DNA of 64,000 nucleotides from Chitinophagales bacterium 33-2 (GTDB lineage Bacteria; Bacteroidota; Bacteroidia; Chitinophagales; Chitinophagaceae): assembly GCA_002050435.1 (NCBI GenBank), contig MWYV01000042.1, positions 1 to 64,000 of the forward strand. The letters run 5' to 3'. A program made the position numbers and the translations under genes. A model generated the notes under the pieces. The model did not search any database. It saw nothing but the letters and a program-made list of their open reading frames with translations, and was not told where the DNA came from. This document shows positions 7,138-62,955 of the stretch, in pieces; the first letter of the stretch is position 1; each line of letters opens with the position of its first letter.

Positions 7138-7677
7138 TCAAAACTGTTTACCCGCTTCATTGGAAGCATCGAACCAGCGGGCATACGTTAGATAGTTATT
7201 TGCAATCCTATCTATCTCACCCTCAATCTTTTCAGGTTCAATTTCCTTTACTTTTTTAGCCGGCACCCCTGCGTAAACCGATCCTGGTTCGCAGATGGTT
7301 CCTTCCAGCACCACCGCCCCTGCAGCAATAATGGTATTGCTGTGCACTACGGCATTGTCCATAACAATGGCGCCCATTCCAATTAAAACATGGTCGTGAA
7401 TGGTACAGCCATGCACTATGGCATTATGGCCAATGGAAACATGATCGCCAATAATGGCTTTGGTTTTTTGAAAAGTAGCATGAATGACCGCTCCATCCTG
7501 GATGTTTACCCTGTTGCCGATACGAATGCTGTTCACATCACCACGGAGCACTGTATTGAACCACACGCTGCATTCATTTCCCATGATCACATCACCAACG
7601 ATCGTGGCATTGGGTGCAATAAAACATTTTTCTCCCCAGGCAGGGTGATGTGCTTCAACAGGTAAAATAATAGCCAT
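7138..7677 (-). CDS. Gamma-carbonic anhydrase family hexapeptide protein
   Basis: This 179-residue protein folds as a left-handed parallel beta helix, shown by repeated hexapeptides of the I-x-I/V-G type from residue 25 onward. The metal-binding histidines of gamma-carbonic anhydrases are in place: one in AVIHATF and two in SIGHNAIVHGC. Homologues (YrdA, PaaY-like) bind zinc or iron as trimers; some hydrate CO2, others have unclear or thioesterase-related roles, so the substrate is not certain. It starts at ATG 7677, and the region upstream of it is a heptad-repeat array. Confidence 0.9.
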   Translation of the reverse strand: MAIILPVEAHHPAWGEKCFIAPNATIVGDVIMGNECSVWFNTVLRGDVNSIRIGNRVNIQDGAVIHATFQKTKAIIGDHVSIGHNAIVHGCTIHDHVLIGMGAIVMDNAVVHSNTIIAAGAVVLEGTICEPGSVYAGVPAKKVKEIEPEKIEGEIDRIANNYLTYARWFDASNEAGKQF

Positions 7678-7723
7678 AAAAAATAAGTTGGAGCGAAATT
7701 AGGAATAAGGGGCGAAGGGAGAG

Positions 7724-7793
7724 GAGCAAGGGGTAAGGGTAAGGGGTAAGGAGCAAGGTGAGAGGGGTGAAGTGAGAGGTTCAGGGTTAAGGA
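7724..7793. repeat. Degenerate 7-base tandem array (10 heptads)
   Basis: Ten consecutive heptads can be laid out without gaps: gagcaag, gggtaag, ggtaagg, ggtaagg, agcaagg, tgagagg, ggtgaag, tgagagg, ttcaggg, ttaagga. The last positions are nearly always A/G-G. The array lies between the divergently transcribed gamma-carbonic anhydrase and aminotransferase genes. Similar G-rich sequence continues to the left as far as about 7701. Confidence 0.75.
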
Positions 7794-11969: not shown

Positions 11970-14900
11970 TTAAAAGTCAAGCCCTAAAGCAATATAGGTC
12001 ATGGGTTTGCCTCTAAAGAAACCATTCATTTGCCAGGCCGCATCGAATTTTACAAAATATCCAAGCAGCGTGCTGCGTGCGCCAAAGCCATAGCCGCCTG
12101 CAAGCGGACCAATACCTCCCGCTTTTACTTTTACACTTATTGCAGGAACTGCAGGGTCCTGGAATCTTACAGAAGGTCTTTCAAAATTATCATAGGCGCC
12201 ATTCCATGCCGTTCCCAGGTCAATGAATTGAACCACCTGGAAATTGCGCAGGAAAGCATTATTGATCGGCCTTTTCAAAAGCGTTGAAAATACCGGCACC
12301 CTGATCTCACTGTTGATCACCACATTATTATTTCCGTTGGCTACATTCTGTTTGAAACCTCTTAAGTTAACCGCCAGTGCCTGGTAAGCATATTGTGCAT
12401 CGGGGTCAGGTGTATTGGACGGATCGAAATATCTGTAGGACAATTCATTTGTATTCTGATCCACCTTCACATTTTCCCTTATTTTGAGCCATCCGTCCAC
12501 ACCGCCCAGATAGTAGATCACTTTCTGGTTGCCCCATGAAAAATCACCAGCCGCACGTAATGCCCAGATGATATTCCGGTGTAGCGGCAGGTAATGTCTT
12601 GCATCAAAACCGGTATTAAATAAAAACTTTCCATCTGTGGATCTCACTTTATTTAACTGTGTGAACCAGTCGAAATAAGCTTTCCATCTTAAGCCCTGCC
12701 AGATGTTGAGTGCAGGATTCAACGTGTTATCATGCACGTACTCCATGGTCAATTGTCCATAGGTTTTGCGCAGGTCGGGTTGCTTCAGATCATTTACAGA
12801 AAATGCAGGAAAGATCATTTTATCAAAGCGCGGCCCGATGGTCATCCTAAGGCTTCTCACCCTGTCAAAGGGATAACTGATCCTGGCCAAATAATAATTG
12901 GAAAACTGTTTTACAAAAGGCCACATCGAAGGATCCCTGAAACGTCCGAAAGAAGTATCTACCTGGGCCTCATTACTACTGCGGTAAAAAGTAAAACCCC
13001 AGTCGATCCTTTTTTTCAAATTGGTATATTCAAAAAGAATATCATTATCTCTTAAGTTCGGAGCAACCCGGATGCCACCTGAAATTTTAATGTCTTCAAA
13101 AAGATCAATAGTCCCCATCCTGATCAATCCATTCAGATCATTACCATTGGATGGATCAATGGGTCCGGCACCGCCCTGGTAAGGCTGGTATTTATTGATT
13201 GCAAAAACATTATTATTTAATCCTGCTACGATATAATCATTAAAGAATTTTGGTGGCCGGTATTCATACAATTTCGCTTTTTGCAAAACAGGCACCGGTT
13301 CAATTTCGCGCGTTTCAAATATTTGTCCTACCCTAGAACTGGTATCTCGTTTTTCATCCTGGAATTCATTTTGGAAAAAATCACCTTCTTTTTGCGTGGT
13401 CGTGTCTGAAGTCATTCCTTCATCTTCATTCCTTCCACTGATGATCCTTTCCCTGTCCCGGAGCGACTTCATATATTCGGTAGGCTTGGCCGTTACATTC
13501 CTTCTGCGCAAAGTGTTTTCATCTACGCGCAAACGGTAAAGAAATTTATAATCGCCCTGTCGTGTAACCTCGCTCACAAGTGAGTTATCGCCTGCCGTGC
13601 GGGTTTCCAGTAAACCAGACTGGTAATTGGTTAATGGAAATACATAGGATGAATCATTCGTGAATGAAACAAATCCAACAGAATCTATATCTGTTTTGTT
13701 CCAGTTGAGGAGCACACTGTCCACTTCCTGTTGCGGTGGATTGCGCAACACTTCATCACCAATAAAAACAAGTGTGTCAAGGCCAGCTCTTTCAGAACGG
13801 AAAAAACCTGCATAGCGGTTGTTGATCCCATTTTCATCACTCACAAAAGTAAAGTGTGATGTATTGTATTGTGAAGGATAACGGGCATTGCCAAATTTTA
13901 CATTGGTCAGCTGGGAAATCTGTTTGAAATCTGACTGGTTCCAGTTATCGATAAGAAAAATATTGTAAGGATTGGCCGTGATGGCGGTATCAGCATTCAT
14001 CGCGTTTTCTGAAGGGCGGTTACTTGAAAAGATGATCCCTGTTTTACCAGGAAAAGCTACAAATGAGGGATCCAGGTCATCGTAAATATCATTAGTGATC
14101 TGGTCTGTGGTCTGCCTGTCAATTTTATAAACAAAAATATCTGTCTGCCCGCTTTTTACAGCGCTGAAGATAAGTGTGTTGGCATCCAACATATACTTCA
14201 CATCCTGCACCTGGCTGAACATCGGCAGTTCCTGGTTCACCACTTTGATGCGGTTCACTACATCATAAACAAAAAGACGGTTCTTACCTTTTTCATTATA
14301 CACTACCGCGAGCCTGGTGCCTTTTCCATCCCAGGCAAGAATAGGGTAGTTTGGATTGATCTCATCTTCGCGAGACCTGATGCCATATTGCAGAATTACT
14401 TTTCTGTCAACAAAATTTGGCCTGAATACCACACTGTATTTACCCTGTTTAAATTCCACTACTGCATAAGCAAGGCTTCTTGGGGTAGGATTGGCATTGA
14501 AACGGATAAAATCTTTTTTGCCTATTTCTTCTGTAACGGATAATTGTCCTTTGGGCATTAATCTTCTTCCGCGCACATCTTTAAAATACTGGTTTGACAT
14601 TTCTGTCATAAAGTCTCTCAGCACATCTTTAAATTTTTTCTGTGCGATCCTTTGTGTAGCACTATTCAGATTTCTGTAAATCCGTGAAAGATAGAGGAGG
14701 TAAGTGGTTTTAGACTTGCCATATTTATTGCCGATATAATACCAGAAAGCGTGGCCTGCAAGTTGCGGTTTTTCAAAAGCAAACTGGTAAAAGTTCCGGT
14801 AGCTTCCACCAAGCAGTGCATTTTTTAACTGGTCGTCCAAATCTGTGCTCCATTCTCTTGCTGCATACTGAATATATCCGTCGGTCAGCCATTTTGGAAG

Positions 14901-19812: not shown

Positions 19813-19830
19813 GGAAGGACAAGGGTCAAG

Positions 19831-19858
19831 GTATGAGGTATGAGGTATGAGGTGCAAG
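19831..19858. repeat. 7-base tandem array (gtatgag x3 plus variant)
   Basis: Three perfect copies of gtatgag (19831-19851) followed by gtgcaag, preceded by related G-rich sequence (about 19807-19830). It lies between dtd and the truncated hemoglobin gene. An upstream in-frame extension of the hemoglobin would run through it, which argues for the later ATG. Confidence 0.8.
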
Positions 19859-19887
19859 AGAAGTGCGTTCTAAAATTTGGGTACTAC

Positions 19888-23365: not shown

Positions 23366-23389
23366 TGCGTGAGCCTGGTGTTAAGGTAA

Positions 23390-23472
23390 GTGAATGGTCA
23401 ATGGTGAATGGTCAATGGTTGTACTTGCCTAAATAGCGTTGACCATTGACTTTTGAACATTCACCATTTCAC
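23390..23472. repeat. Inverted pair of 7-base arrays (long imperfect hairpin)
   Basis: The left arm reads gtgaatg, gtcaatg, gtgaatg, gtcaatg (23390-23417). The right arm, about 23439-23472, is the same type on the other strand: gttgac, cattgac, ttttgaa, cattcac, catttcac. The two arms can pair over much of their length around a 20-base centre. It lies between glyS and the beta-barrel gene. Confidence 0.75.
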
Positions 23473-23557
23473 AAATCGATACGTCCTTTTTTTCTTTACA
23501 TAGCACAAGTCTTATATTGTGCAGATTACTGACTGCATTCTTTTTTAAACGAATCTT

Positions 23558-53870: not shown

Positions 53871-53898
53871 GGTAAGTACAAGGTTCAAGGGAGAAGTT
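53871..53898. repeat. 7-base array (4 heptads)
   Basis: Heptads ggtaagt, acaaggt, tcaaggg, agaagtt follow the acyl-CoA dehydrogenase stop directly. The phase is clear but copies are degenerate. Confidence 0.6.
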
Positions 53899-53906
53899 GC
53901 GCGGTC

Positions 53907-58229: not shown

Positions 58230-58607
58230 ATGCAGGAAAATAAAAGACAAAAACAGATCGCAGGTTTATTGAGCCAGGAACTGGCCGGAATTCTTCAATA
58301 CCTGGGATTAAATATTGTTGAAGGTGGTATGGTTTCGATCTCAAGTGTGAAAATCACCCCAGATCTGCTGGAAGCCAGGATCTACCTGAGTATTTACAAT
58401 GCCGCCGACAGGAACGTAGCACTTAAAAAAATTGAAGAACGTTCCTGGGAAATAAAAAAGGAACTGGCCGCACGGGTAAAGCACCAGCTCCGACGTATTC
58501 CCGAACTAAAAATCTTCCTGGATGATACACTTGACCAGGTATTTAAAATGGAAGAACTGTTTAAACAGATCAAAAAGGATGAGGAAGGAGAGGGGGAGAA
58601 GGGATAA
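58230..58607 (+). CDS. rbfA: Ribosome-binding factor A
   Basis: A 125-residue RbfA with the KH-like fold: RQKQIAGLLSQELAGILQ, then VSISSVKITPDLLEARIYLSIY and RIPELKIFLDDTLDQ. It matures the 30S subunit and helps in cold adaptation. The last residues EEGEGEKG are acidic and low-complexity because they are encoded by a heptad-repeat array that also contains the stop codon (58605-58607). It is coupled to the upstream glycosyltransferase gene. Confidence 0.93.
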   Translation: MQENKRQKQIAGLLSQELAGILQYLGLNIVEGGMVSISSVKITPDLLEARIYLSIYNAADRNVALKKIEERSWEIKKELAARVKHQLRRIPELKIFLDDTLDQVFKMEELFKQIKKDEEGEGEKG

Positions 58608-58640
58608 GGAGAGAAGGGATAAGGAGTAAGGATTCAGGTG
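58596..58640. repeat. 7-base array across the rbfA stop (15-bp perfect duplication)
   Basis: The unit gagaagggataagga occurs twice in direct succession (58596-58610 and 58611-58625), itself two heptads (agaaggg, ataagga) plus one G. It is followed by gtaagga, ttcaggt. The first copy holds the rbfA stop codon. Confidence 0.8.
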
Positions 58641-58681
58641 CAGGTCAGTTGGTTGGATCATTAATCATTAATAATTGATAA

Positions 58682-59905
58682 TTGAATTTTCTTTTTGCCT
58701 GGCGCTATTTTAAAGCTAGAAAAACAACCAATGCGATCAATGTGATCTCCTGGATCAGCATTGTGGCGATGATGATCGGCACTGCATCACTAATACTTGT
58801 GCTAAGTGTATTCAATGGCTTTGAAGGACTGGTGAAATCATTGTATTCTTCTTTTTATCCTGAAATAAAAATTTCTCCTGTTTCCGGAAAACAGATCAAC
58901 CTCACAGCAGAACAGCTTGCGCAATTAAGATCTGTAAAAGGCATAGCCCACCTTTCTTTATATGTTGAAGAAAAAGCCCTGCTGCGTCATGGCGAATCGC
59001 AATCGATCGTAAATCTCAAGGGTGTTGATGATCAATACACATCCGTCAACAGTATTGAACAGCATATTGTGAAAGGCAACTTCAATACAGGAAGCGAAGA
59101 ACAGGCGCTGCTCATTCTGGGAGCCGGGATTGAAAGCGCTGTAGGGGTTCAAACAGACAGGAATATTATTCCGTTGGAAGTTTACCTGCCGCGGAAGGGC
59201 GAAGTAAGTCTGACAGATCCACTGAATGCATTGAGTCATGATACCCTGAATACCTCGGGAACTTTTATGATCCAGCAGGAATTCGACAACCGCTATGCCC
59301 TTACCAATATGCAGTTTGTAAAGAACATGCTGTCTATGGATCCCGATGTGTATGGAGGAGTGGAAATCGCCCTAAGGCCCGGGCTCGATCCCGCGCCTGT
59401 GCAACTGCAGATCAGGAAAATTTTAGGTGATGGTTACCTGGTACGCAACAGGTTTGAGCAGAATGCCAGTCTTTATTCCGTTATGCAGATTGAAAAATGG
59501 ATGATCTATGCCATACTTTCCCTGATCCTGGTAGTGGCCGCTTTTAATATGATCGGTTCCCTCACGATGCTGGTACTGGAAAAGAAAAAAGACATTACGG
59601 TACTACATGCACTGGGCGCAGACCGGTCATTTATTCAGCGCATATTTCTGAGCAGTGGTATTTTACTTGCGTTATTGGGGGGAGGTATAGGAATGTTGCT
59701 GGCTTACCTGATCGGGCTTGCGCAAATGAAGTTTCACCTGATTCCTCTGCAGGGAAATACTTTCATGCTGGATTATTTCCCGGTAAAAATGATGATCAAA
59801 GATTTTCTGCTGGTGAGCGGAACTGTTTTCATCATCGCCCTCCTGGCTTCTTTTATACCGGCAAGAAAGGCTGCCCGGCAGCAGTTTTTATTAAGAGAAG
59901 AATAA
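58682..59905 (+). CDS. LolC/E-type ABC permease (FtsX family)
   Basis: A 407-residue membrane protein: N-terminal helix with ARKTTNAINVISWISIVAMMIGTASL, a large periplasmic domain, and three C-terminal helices in an FtsX-like fold (VVAAFNMIGSLTMLVLEKKKDI, then ALGADRSFIQRIFLSSG). This is the LolC/LolE type that releases lipoproteins from the inner membrane, or a MacB-like relative. The start is TTG 58682: an in-frame TAA is directly before it. The ATPase partner is not in the window. Confidence 0.88.
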   Translation: MNFLFAWRYFKARKTTNAINVISWISIVAMMIGTASLILVLSVFNGFEGLVKSLYSSFYPEIKISPVSGKQINLTAEQLAQLRSVKGIAHLSLYVEEKALLRHGESQSIVNLKGVDDQYTSVNSIEQHIVKGNFNTGSEEQALLILGAGIESAVGVQTDRNIIPLEVYLPRKGEVSLTDPLNALSHDTLNTSGTFMIQQEFDNRYALTNMQFVKNMLSMDPDVYGGVEIALRPGLDPAPVQLQIRKILGDGYLVRNRFEQNASLYSVMQIEKWMIYAILSLILVVAAFNMIGSLTMLVLEKKKDITVLHALGADRSFIQRIFLSSGILLALLGGGIGMLLAYLIGLAQMKFHLIPLQGNTFMLDYFPVKMMIKDFLLVSGTVFIIALLASFIPARKAARQQFLLREE

Positions 59906-62249: not shown

Positions 62250-62816
62250 ATGTCAGCTGAAGACGTTTCACTTGCCCTTGATATTGCTGAAGATTCTATG
62301 CAGAAAGCGATCACACACCTTGAGGTGGAACTCGCTAAGATCCGCGCAGGCAAGGCCAATCCTCAAATGCTGGATGGTATTATAGTGGACTATTATGGTT
62401 CACCAACACCTATCAACCAGGTGGCCAACATCAGTGCAGTTGATGCCCGTACACTTACCGTGCAGCCATGGGAAAAAAATATGCTGAGCCCTATTGAACG
62501 CGCCATCATTGCTTCTAACATCGGGATCAATCCCCAGAACGATGGTGTGCTGATCCGTCTTTTCCTTCCGCCACTAACAGAGGAACGCCGGCGCGAATTA
62601 GTGAAACGTTGTATGGGTGAAGGCGAACATTCCAAAGTAGCAATCCGCAACCTCCGCCGCGATGCGATTGAGAGTATAAAAAAAGCGCAGAAGAATGGAC
62701 TCAGCGAAGACGCGGCCAAGGATGCCGAAGCCGGTGTGCAGGTAATTACGGATAAGCATATTGCTTTGGTAGATAAACACCTGGCGCAGAAGGAGAAGGA
62801 AATTATGGTGGTATAG
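62250..62816 (+). CDS. frr: Ribosome recycling factor
   Basis: A 188-residue RRF: HLEVELAKIRAGKANPQMLDGIIVDYYG, IERAIIASNIGINPQNDG, and LPPLTEERRRELVKRCMGEGEHSKVAIRNLRRDA. With EF-G it splits the post-termination ribosome. The length and motifs are normal. A heptad array starts directly after the stop. Confidence 0.97.
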   Translation: MSAEDVSLALDIAEDSMQKAITHLEVELAKIRAGKANPQMLDGIIVDYYGSPTPINQVANISAVDARTLTVQPWEKNMLSPIERAIIASNIGINPQNDGVLIRLFLPPLTEERRRELVKRCMGEGEHSKVAIRNLRRDAIESIKKAQKNGLSEDAAKDAEAGVQVITDKHIALVDKHLAQKEKEIMVV

Positions 62817-62851
62817 GTTAGCGATTAGCGAATAGAGGTTAGCGGTTGGTG
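62817..62851. repeat. 7-base array after frr (5 heptads)
   Basis: ggttagc, gattagc, gaataga, ggttagc, ggttggt, directly after the frr stop, in phase without gaps. Confidence 0.75.
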
Positions 62852-62884
62852 AAAAATACCCTCCCATTGGTTTCATGTAATCAA

Positions 62885-62955
62885 AACCTAGAACCTTGAA
62901 CCTTTTCCCTTTCCCTCATCCCTTGAACCTTGAACCTCATTCCTCATTCCTCACC
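62885..62955. repeat. 7-base array before transporter gene (10 heptads, opposite orientation)
   Basis: Pyrimidine-strand heptads in unbroken phase: aacctag, aaccttg, aaccttt, tcccttt, ccctcat, cccttga, accttga, acctcat, tcctcat, tcctcac, ending one base before the ATG at 62956. They match the other arrays on the complementary strand. Confidence 0.8.

Follow-up and report, generated by a model that had tools for sequence, protein, structure and literature searches.

Heptad repeat arrays in a Chitinophagales genome as putative arms of small dispersed PF05635 elements

Heptamer repeats in bacteria have been noticed for years while their agent has been missing. A stretch of 64,000 nt from Chitinophagales bacterium 33-2 (contig MWYV01000042.1, positions 1 to 64,000; hereafter the window) carries several such runs of degenerate 7-base units between its genes, of a kind comparable to the heptanucleotide STRR of cyanobacteria. 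Here we ask whether these arrays are real, what they belong to, and which gene, if any, goes with them.

Heptad arrays in the window and in related genomes

We scored as an array any window stretch with at least 15 of 21 matches at lag 7. Seven stretches passed (7721-7767, 19815-19861, 23385-23423, 58607-58639, 58652-58691, 62810-62849 and 62882-62955), against a single lag-5 place when the same criterion was applied at lags 5, 6 and 8. An initial annotation had named six dispersed sites with a strict 7-base spacing. Five of them were recovered at lag 7, while the sixth, at 53,871, is a short run which does not reach the threshold. The spacing itself is looser than described, as units of 6 and 8 bases occur (7,722; 58,594) and the C-rich run at 62,885-62,955 by eye slips by one. 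The same annotation saw runs facing each other at 62,817-62,955; both exist, but their words differ (GGTTAGC versus CCTTGAA/CCTCATT) and they form no clean inverted pair. The clean inverted pair of the window lies at 23,390-23,464 and had gone unmentioned.

Table 1. Heptad features of the window, with the score of each against the library of PF05635 cassette arms described below
Feature	Position	Strand	Context	Library score (reversed control)
G-rich unpaired array, AGGAGCA/AGGGGTA units, NNYAAGG word family	7722..7765	+		10.5 (14.0), not above control
G-rich array, GGTCAAGGTATGAGGTATGAGG	19817..19852	+	4 nt past D-Tyr-tRNA deacylase stop	12.5 (13.0), not above control
Clean hairpin: GGTGAAT/GGTCAAT arm, loop, complementary arm	23390..23464	+	downstream of class-II tRNA synthetase gene	26 (15), best match cassette L258
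Short weak run, GTACAAGGTTCAAGGGAGAAG	53871..53900	+	at stop of upstream gene; under lag-7 threshold	
G-rich array, GAGAAGGGATAAGGA units, NNYAAGG family	58585..58638	+	rbfA 3' end (RBFA by Pfam)	12.0 (8.5), not clearly above control
AT-rich heptad array, ATCATTA/ATAATTG	58653..58690	+	absent from the list of the initial annotation	10.5 (12.5), not above control
G-rich array, GGTTAGC/GATTAGC	62817..62847	+	immediately after frr stop codon	11.5 (9.0), not decisive
Array, G-rich on minus strand: TTCAAGG/ATGAGG units (plus: CCTTGAA/CCTCATT)	62882..62955	-	ends at ATG of EamA gene, 62956 (EamA by Pfam)	

The neighbours of the window copies are protein genes; the first array, for instance, has a hexapeptide-transferase ORF (-) on one side and a class-III aminotransferase ORF (+) on the other, both assigned by Pfam. 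No Rfam family matched the window at gathering scores. The hairpin at 23,390 has an inverted partner score of 16, and the predicted RNA fold of 23380-23500 is -32.9 kcal/mol. Its GGT[GC]AAT family has 58 matches in the genome, counting the hairpin itself and several matches within one array; some span the loop, and others lie in the array of a PF05635 cassette on contig C14.

Three of the window arrays contain a match to the pattern AAGGNNNAAGGNNNAAGG (7741-7758, 58614-58631 and, on the minus strand, 62894-62911). In the genome as a whole the pattern occurs 11 times versus 2 for its reversal, where 3 of the 11 overlap in one array and at least 2 apparently lie in coding DNA. There is no general excess over the reversed pattern in congeners (0 vs 63 in G011, 35 vs 9 in G017, 30 vs 20 in G015). 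The window copies besides the 23,390 hairpin fall into this looser NNYAAGG family. By eye, NNYAAGG-type words are found at two PF05635 loci, one in the same genome (L176) and one in a congener (G017:C98), and the 19,817 array has ACAAGGGTCAAGG in common with an arm of L176. It should be noted that the right arm of L176, ACAAGGGTCAAGGAGCAAG, is weakly paired and that this locus fails the arm test used below.

The scan was extended to 864 kb of the 3.01 Mb genome, window included (76 contigs, 90% complete), with intergenic segments delimited by simple ORF calls. Lag-7 arrays were found in 23 of 368 segments, compared with a mean of 0.20 and a maximum of 2 in 20 dinucleotide shuffles; other lags from 4 to 23 gave 0 to 11 segments each, lags 14 and 22 being highest. 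Two congeners have the same excess, with lag-7 arrays in 11 of 104 (G015) and 3 of 70 (G002) intergenic segments, as do 80 loci from named relatives, with 33 of 712 segments versus a shuffle mean of 1.35. Named relatives found via frr include Paraflavisolibacter, Flavisolibacter, Flavihumibacter and Chitinophaga. An excess over shuffled intergenic sequence and a recurrence in relatives were both anticipated by the initial annotation, and both were found. The heptad arrays are real. Each genome holds several words, as opposed to the one conserved word type per genome of published heptamer examples. Separately, the intergenic DNA of this genome and of G015 has an excess at lags 11 and 22 besides 7, 14 and 21, for which 7-base units with phase slips alone are an insufficient explanation.

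Inverted arms around PF05635 genes

From all sets we extracted 97 distinct arrays, identical arrays being counted once. A reverse-complement partner within 160 bp (score at least 12) was present for 28 of them, where both arms of a pair can count, compared with 3.4-4.0% after swapping of flanks; direct copies were seen in the flanks of 3. Clear inverted partners were distributed as 23/50 in the named relatives, 3/27 in the genome of the window, 2/15 in G015 and 0/5 in G002. Within one record (L103) the words differ between loci, yet both arms of each locus agree. Two hairpins of this record (7647-7757 and 12076-12167) have a common loop sequence and differ in arm length and units, and are copies of one element.

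In Flavihumibacter (L057) such a pair flanks a small ORF of the family PF05635. The family has 5 matches in the genome of the window and matches in at least 17 of the 18 genomes of the genus. We collected 71 loci with full flanks from 16 of these genomes, using high-scoring matches among those listed (31 given as loci and 40 taken from the top of the list), a choice which may bias the set towards intact genes; five loci at contig edges were dropped (L174, L220, L224, L298, L305). At 64 of the 71 loci the gene lies between inverted arms whose units have 7 or 8 bases (score at least 12, versus 5.7% with swapped flanks); at a score of at least 16 this holds for 48 of 71 versus 1.9%. Seven loci lack arms by this test. 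The best period among the 64 is 7 in 47, 8 in 13 and another value in 4. The 5' arm is the G-rich one in 61 of the 64. Since a palindrome gives the same reading from either strand, this polarity belongs to the element and does not derive from the sense of the gene. Arms hold a median of 4.0 units, and the period-7 units agree weakly in a profile which, read along the G strand, is A-R-T-T-G-K-N (45 arms; 0/100 under a column-permuted null). We also considered whether 7-base units serve to place stop codons in all frames, and rejected this, as three frames are closed in 19 of 62 arms versus 26 of 62 reversed arms.

The arrangement extends beyond the genus. PF05635 was found in 45 of 61 Bacteroidota genomes, and from the best loci only (28 new, 26 with full flanks) arms were detected at 19 of 26 versus 4.5% of swaps. 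In plasmid records of three other phyla arms scoring at least 14 were present in 15 of the 16 that the search found, versus 8.7% of swaps, although these records are not independent (L376 equals L377 in its arms, and L311, L379 and L380 are alike) and the gene ends of two unannotated ones (L313 and L381) were guessed from the match. Fourteen of the 16 are cyanobacterial, several with nearly perfect heptads. Where plasmid cassettes are annotated, their neighbours encode proteins; the other loci were judged by open frames only.

Some of the plasmid genes lie inside known operons (L306, L314, L375, L309): between cas6 and cas4 in Anabaena 90 and Pseudanabaena galeata, between cas10 and cmr3 in Picosynechococcus 7003, and between two ribonucleotide reductase subunit genes in Nostoc edaphicum. 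Two further loci were noted at contig ends. At L174, by eye, period-8 arms are present and the contig end mirrors its own flank; at L374 (G000:C36:25800-27038), with period-8 TTTAGTTG arms, the contig end is the reverse complement of the sequence preceding the PF05635 cassette, which is either an assembly palindrome or a real inverted duplication.

The cassette arms were used as a library against which the arrays were compared. In the genome of the window 17 of 27 arrays match it versus 3 of 27 when reversed, while the other sets stay close to their reversed controls (8 v 8 in G015, 2 v 1 in G002, 12 v 8 in the named relatives). One PF05635 gene of this genome (L175) lies beside about 22 copies of GGTCAAT. 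The window copies have no PF05635 gene, the linked genes lying outside the window, and the 23,390 hairpin is the only one of them clearly carrying a cassette word. The library test is not clearly above control for the remaining window sites, which are putative members of the same family.

Arm words, gene ends and alternative explanations

The arm words follow the protein. Among 62 cassettes (two of the 64 with short domains being excluded) arm similarity correlates with protein identity (Mantel r 0.623; reached in 0 of 5000 permutations, the best being 0.105), and sharing a genome gives no gain in arm likeness (r -0.043). Word sharing between genomes rises with amino acid identity, from 6/1354 pairs below 0.35 through 8/250 at 0.35-0.5 and 21/95 at 0.5-0.6 to 48/60 above. 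At an identity of at least 0.55 there are 98 between-genome pairs, of which 80 have no detectable flank homology over 600 bp on each side; words are shared by 49 of these 80 and by 13 of the 18 with flank homology. In comparisons of matched length, 38 of 43 close pairs show greater similarity in their arms than in the spacer between arm and gene, and 3 show the reverse. As words are common to pairs in unrelated flanks and arms exceed spacers, the arms stay with the protein at different locations. Every cassette carries a word of its own, and the words track protein relatedness, not the host genome.

It is less clear that agreement between the two arms of one copy is maintained. When the arms were chosen according to how they pair, the own partner scored 20.0 versus 14.9 for that of a homologue, but such a choice favours own arms; over whole flanks the own right arm beats that of the homologue in 83 of 120 comparisons (32 reverse), with means of 20.0 vs 19.5.

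The arrays are also placed non-randomly with respect to genes. Leaving out 7 of the 97 arrays which lie at locus ends, arrays whose nearest boundary is a 3' end have a G-rich sense strand in 38 of 45 cases (one more tied), and those nearest to a 5' end a C-rich one in 30 of 42 (two tied), while array-free sequence after stops has no skew (423 vs 453). Arrays are depleted in divergent gaps (12/90 vs 348/1354, p 0.008). For the cassettes, neighbouring 3' ends lie within 10 nt of an arm in 46 of 64 cases and 5' ends in 18 of 54, distances that depend on simple gene calls and on arms which themselves contain stops. In convergent gene pairs both arms can abut stop codons.

This placement is what would be expected if the arrays were long 3'-end hairpins, selected as REP-like terminators or RNA stabilisers and grown locally, with PF05635 genes merely using the sites. 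A hairpin in Chitinophaga niastensis (L086:18513-18580) fits that description, as heptads by eye stand where a congener has a GC-rich terminator and the T-tract is kept. Other gaps behave differently: where one species has a single arm or a pair of arms, some orthologous gaps of congeners have only 18-31 bp between protein matches, as with the C. niastensis site at L086:17232-17332 and its 18 bp counterpart in C. eiseniae, whereas others are equally long without arrays. Several sites thus have short hairpin-free gaps in congeners, and the tracking between words and protein is left unexplained, hence we regard selection for such hairpins as an unlikely origin.

A further possibility is that polymerase slippage in steps of 7 nt produced simple-sequence repeats which point mutations then obscured, the PF05635 gene being incidental. 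In many genomes long repeats are most often heptamers, and a polymerase contact of 7 nt has been suggested (PMC4679880, PMC4692102, as far as the parts of these papers drawn on here go); the nearly perfect, about 22-fold GGTCAAT array resembles such a product, and most arrays of the genome of the window have no inverted partner. Slippage predicts neither inverted arms around one gene family, nor words that track the protein between genomes, nor a G-rich 5' arm, and as sole cause it is disfavoured; we give it a small chance only. The view of the initial annotation, that this is a dispersed family of degenerate units beyond simple slippage of one motif, is borne out by the inverted arms and by the words tracking the PF05635 protein.

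That the arrays act as G-quadruplexes or in regulation, an idea raised for the GGGNATC repeats of Xanthomonas and Nostoc, would agree with G-rich units present about four to an arm, as in the sections of PMC4692102 used here. Several words lack G-tracts (AATTACG, ATTGAAT, GTTCACAA), therefore quadruplexes cannot be the common denominator and we consider this reading very improbable. Rho loading can hardly be the explanation: the C-rich strand offers YC every 7 nt, a spacing which would suit the Rho ring, and faces antisense transcription, but one arm can pair with the other, and by eye YC is missing from some words.

Possible cassette exchange, a proposed element and known systems

One chromosomal site is occupied differently in four congeners. 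G005 has a cassette with CAAT-type arms, G014 and G008 have another with GTTTGGG-type arms and a protein only 24% identical to the first, and G002 has a gene-less hairpin of a third word with no room for a gene. Left and right flanks are common to G005, G014 and G008, and the right edge also to G002. The word of the second cassette recurs as short, scattered arm-only copies, many of them plus/minus pairs, in G012, G008 and G005. By eye no target duplication was seen at this site or in the orthologous gaps. The space between the arms accommodates the PF05635 gene only, and we know of no transposase activity of this gene; a transposase or integrase gene adjoins the arms on the outside in 4 of the 16 plasmid records. 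Retro-movement via a host reverse transcriptase was considered and set aside, as PF00078 does not co-occur with PF05635 (21/45 vs 5/16 genomes, p 0.38) and has 0 matches in the genome of the window (90% complete).

A repeat family of about 500 bp without a clear ORF has 52 matches in the same genome (for example L021:4255-4882 and L023:6200-7500). Some copies are nested between GGTCAAT arms, the ends of one reading GTTGTCCGGGGAAA / TTTCCCCGGACAAC by eye, and the repeat in L023 adjoins a DUF4372/DDE transposase ORF. We rejected it as a dead PF05635 cassette: tblastn of 71 proteins against five stretches gave a best E of 0.003, outside the repeat. It is probably a separate element, namely an insertion sequence's MITE located within hairpin loops.

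The explanation we favour, and hold to be rather likely, is that the heptad arrays are arms of small dispersed, probably mobile PF05635 elements whose protein reads its own units, the window copies being non-autonomous or decayed. In its full form the element carries one PF05635 gene, with a G-rich tandem array (units of 7 or 8 bases) on one side and the reverse-complement array on the other; it is situated between genes, and often an arm coincides with or adjoins a neighbour's stop codon. Hairpins lacking the gene and solitary arms, as in the window, would be its non-autonomous or decayed members. The solved structure nearest to the PF05635 protein is 2gsc (XCC0516, five chains), and XCC0516 is described as a homopentamer of four-helix bundles in the part of PMC4990558 cited here. 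We propose that a ring of this kind recognises its own arms by their tandem units, of which each arm has about four, perhaps with one unit per subunit, and brings both arms together as RNA or single-stranded DNA; such pairing would help the element, and gene-less copies of the same word, to be copied or moved. As the words correlate with the protein, a recognition code is predicted. The idea of selfish or protein-binding elements, raised by the initial annotation, is supported as a possibility; we infer binding of arm units by the protein, and likewise present-day movement and its chemistry.

More tentatively, and with some doubt, we suggest a new class of mobile element, combining a PF05635 ring as sole protein, a protein-specific arm code, insertion at stop codons, exchange of cassettes at fixed sites and a larger number of gene-less hairpins mobilised in trans. 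If this holds, STRR, GGGNATC and TAACTGA heptamers and the rRNA intervening sequences would be parts of one system. To our knowledge PF05635 proteins ('four helix bundle protein', 'S23 ribosomal protein', '23S rRNA IVP', 'S23p') have no known function, and the link offers a testable explanation in which the repeats are the ends, and the PF05635 protein the gene, of the same element.

REP/BIME and MITEs are dispersed palindromes near gene ends and gene-less copies of a gene-bearing element, and in both respects resemble the elements described here; the differences are that, judged by length, no transposase lies between our arms, and that arms of tandem units vary between cassettes. The initial annotation knew of no described counterpart in this family, but heptameric arrays are in print. 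Rehm et al. (2015) described G-rich heptameric GGGNATC repeats in Xanthomonas and Nostoc (PMC4692102). As far as the sections of that paper used here go, these resemble ours in having 7-base units, preferably four, on the sense strand near stop codons, in being rare between divergent genes, and in being arranged as inverted pairs, 70 and 75 times in two Xanthomonas and seldom in Nostoc. They differ in having one word type per organism studied, as against many words tied to PF05635 protein lineages, and in general no link to mobile elements was reported for them; the main text contains none of the terms S23, four helix and XCC0516. TAACTGA repeats were reported by MacGregor (2015) from Beggiatoaceae, Cyanobacteria and five Bacteroidetes (PMC4679880). 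In the portions of that paper considered they too are intergenic heptamers of patchy distribution, with shorter repeat-free gaps in some relatives, but are mainly read as translational sites of one word, with no cassette gene proposed.

The 23S rRNA intervening sequences with an S23p/IVP ORF, treated by Warrier et al. (2016; PMC4990558, cited in part), place a PF05635-type gene between stem-forming terminal inverted repeats and have been proposed as selfish or once mobile. They sit in rRNA helices and are excised by RNase III, whereas the elements here lie between protein genes, have tandem 7/8-mer arms and occur as gene-less copies. The Avd protein of diversity-generating retroelements is described as homologous to PF05635 and is likewise an accessory protein of a mobile process (PMC10053308, cited in part), though the genome of the window has no PF00078 reverse transcriptase match. 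In the open-access literature we found no paper joining heptameric repeats with PF05635 or the rRNA intervening sequences. Heptameric repeats and rRNA intervening sequences have been known separately, and their linkage is apparently new.
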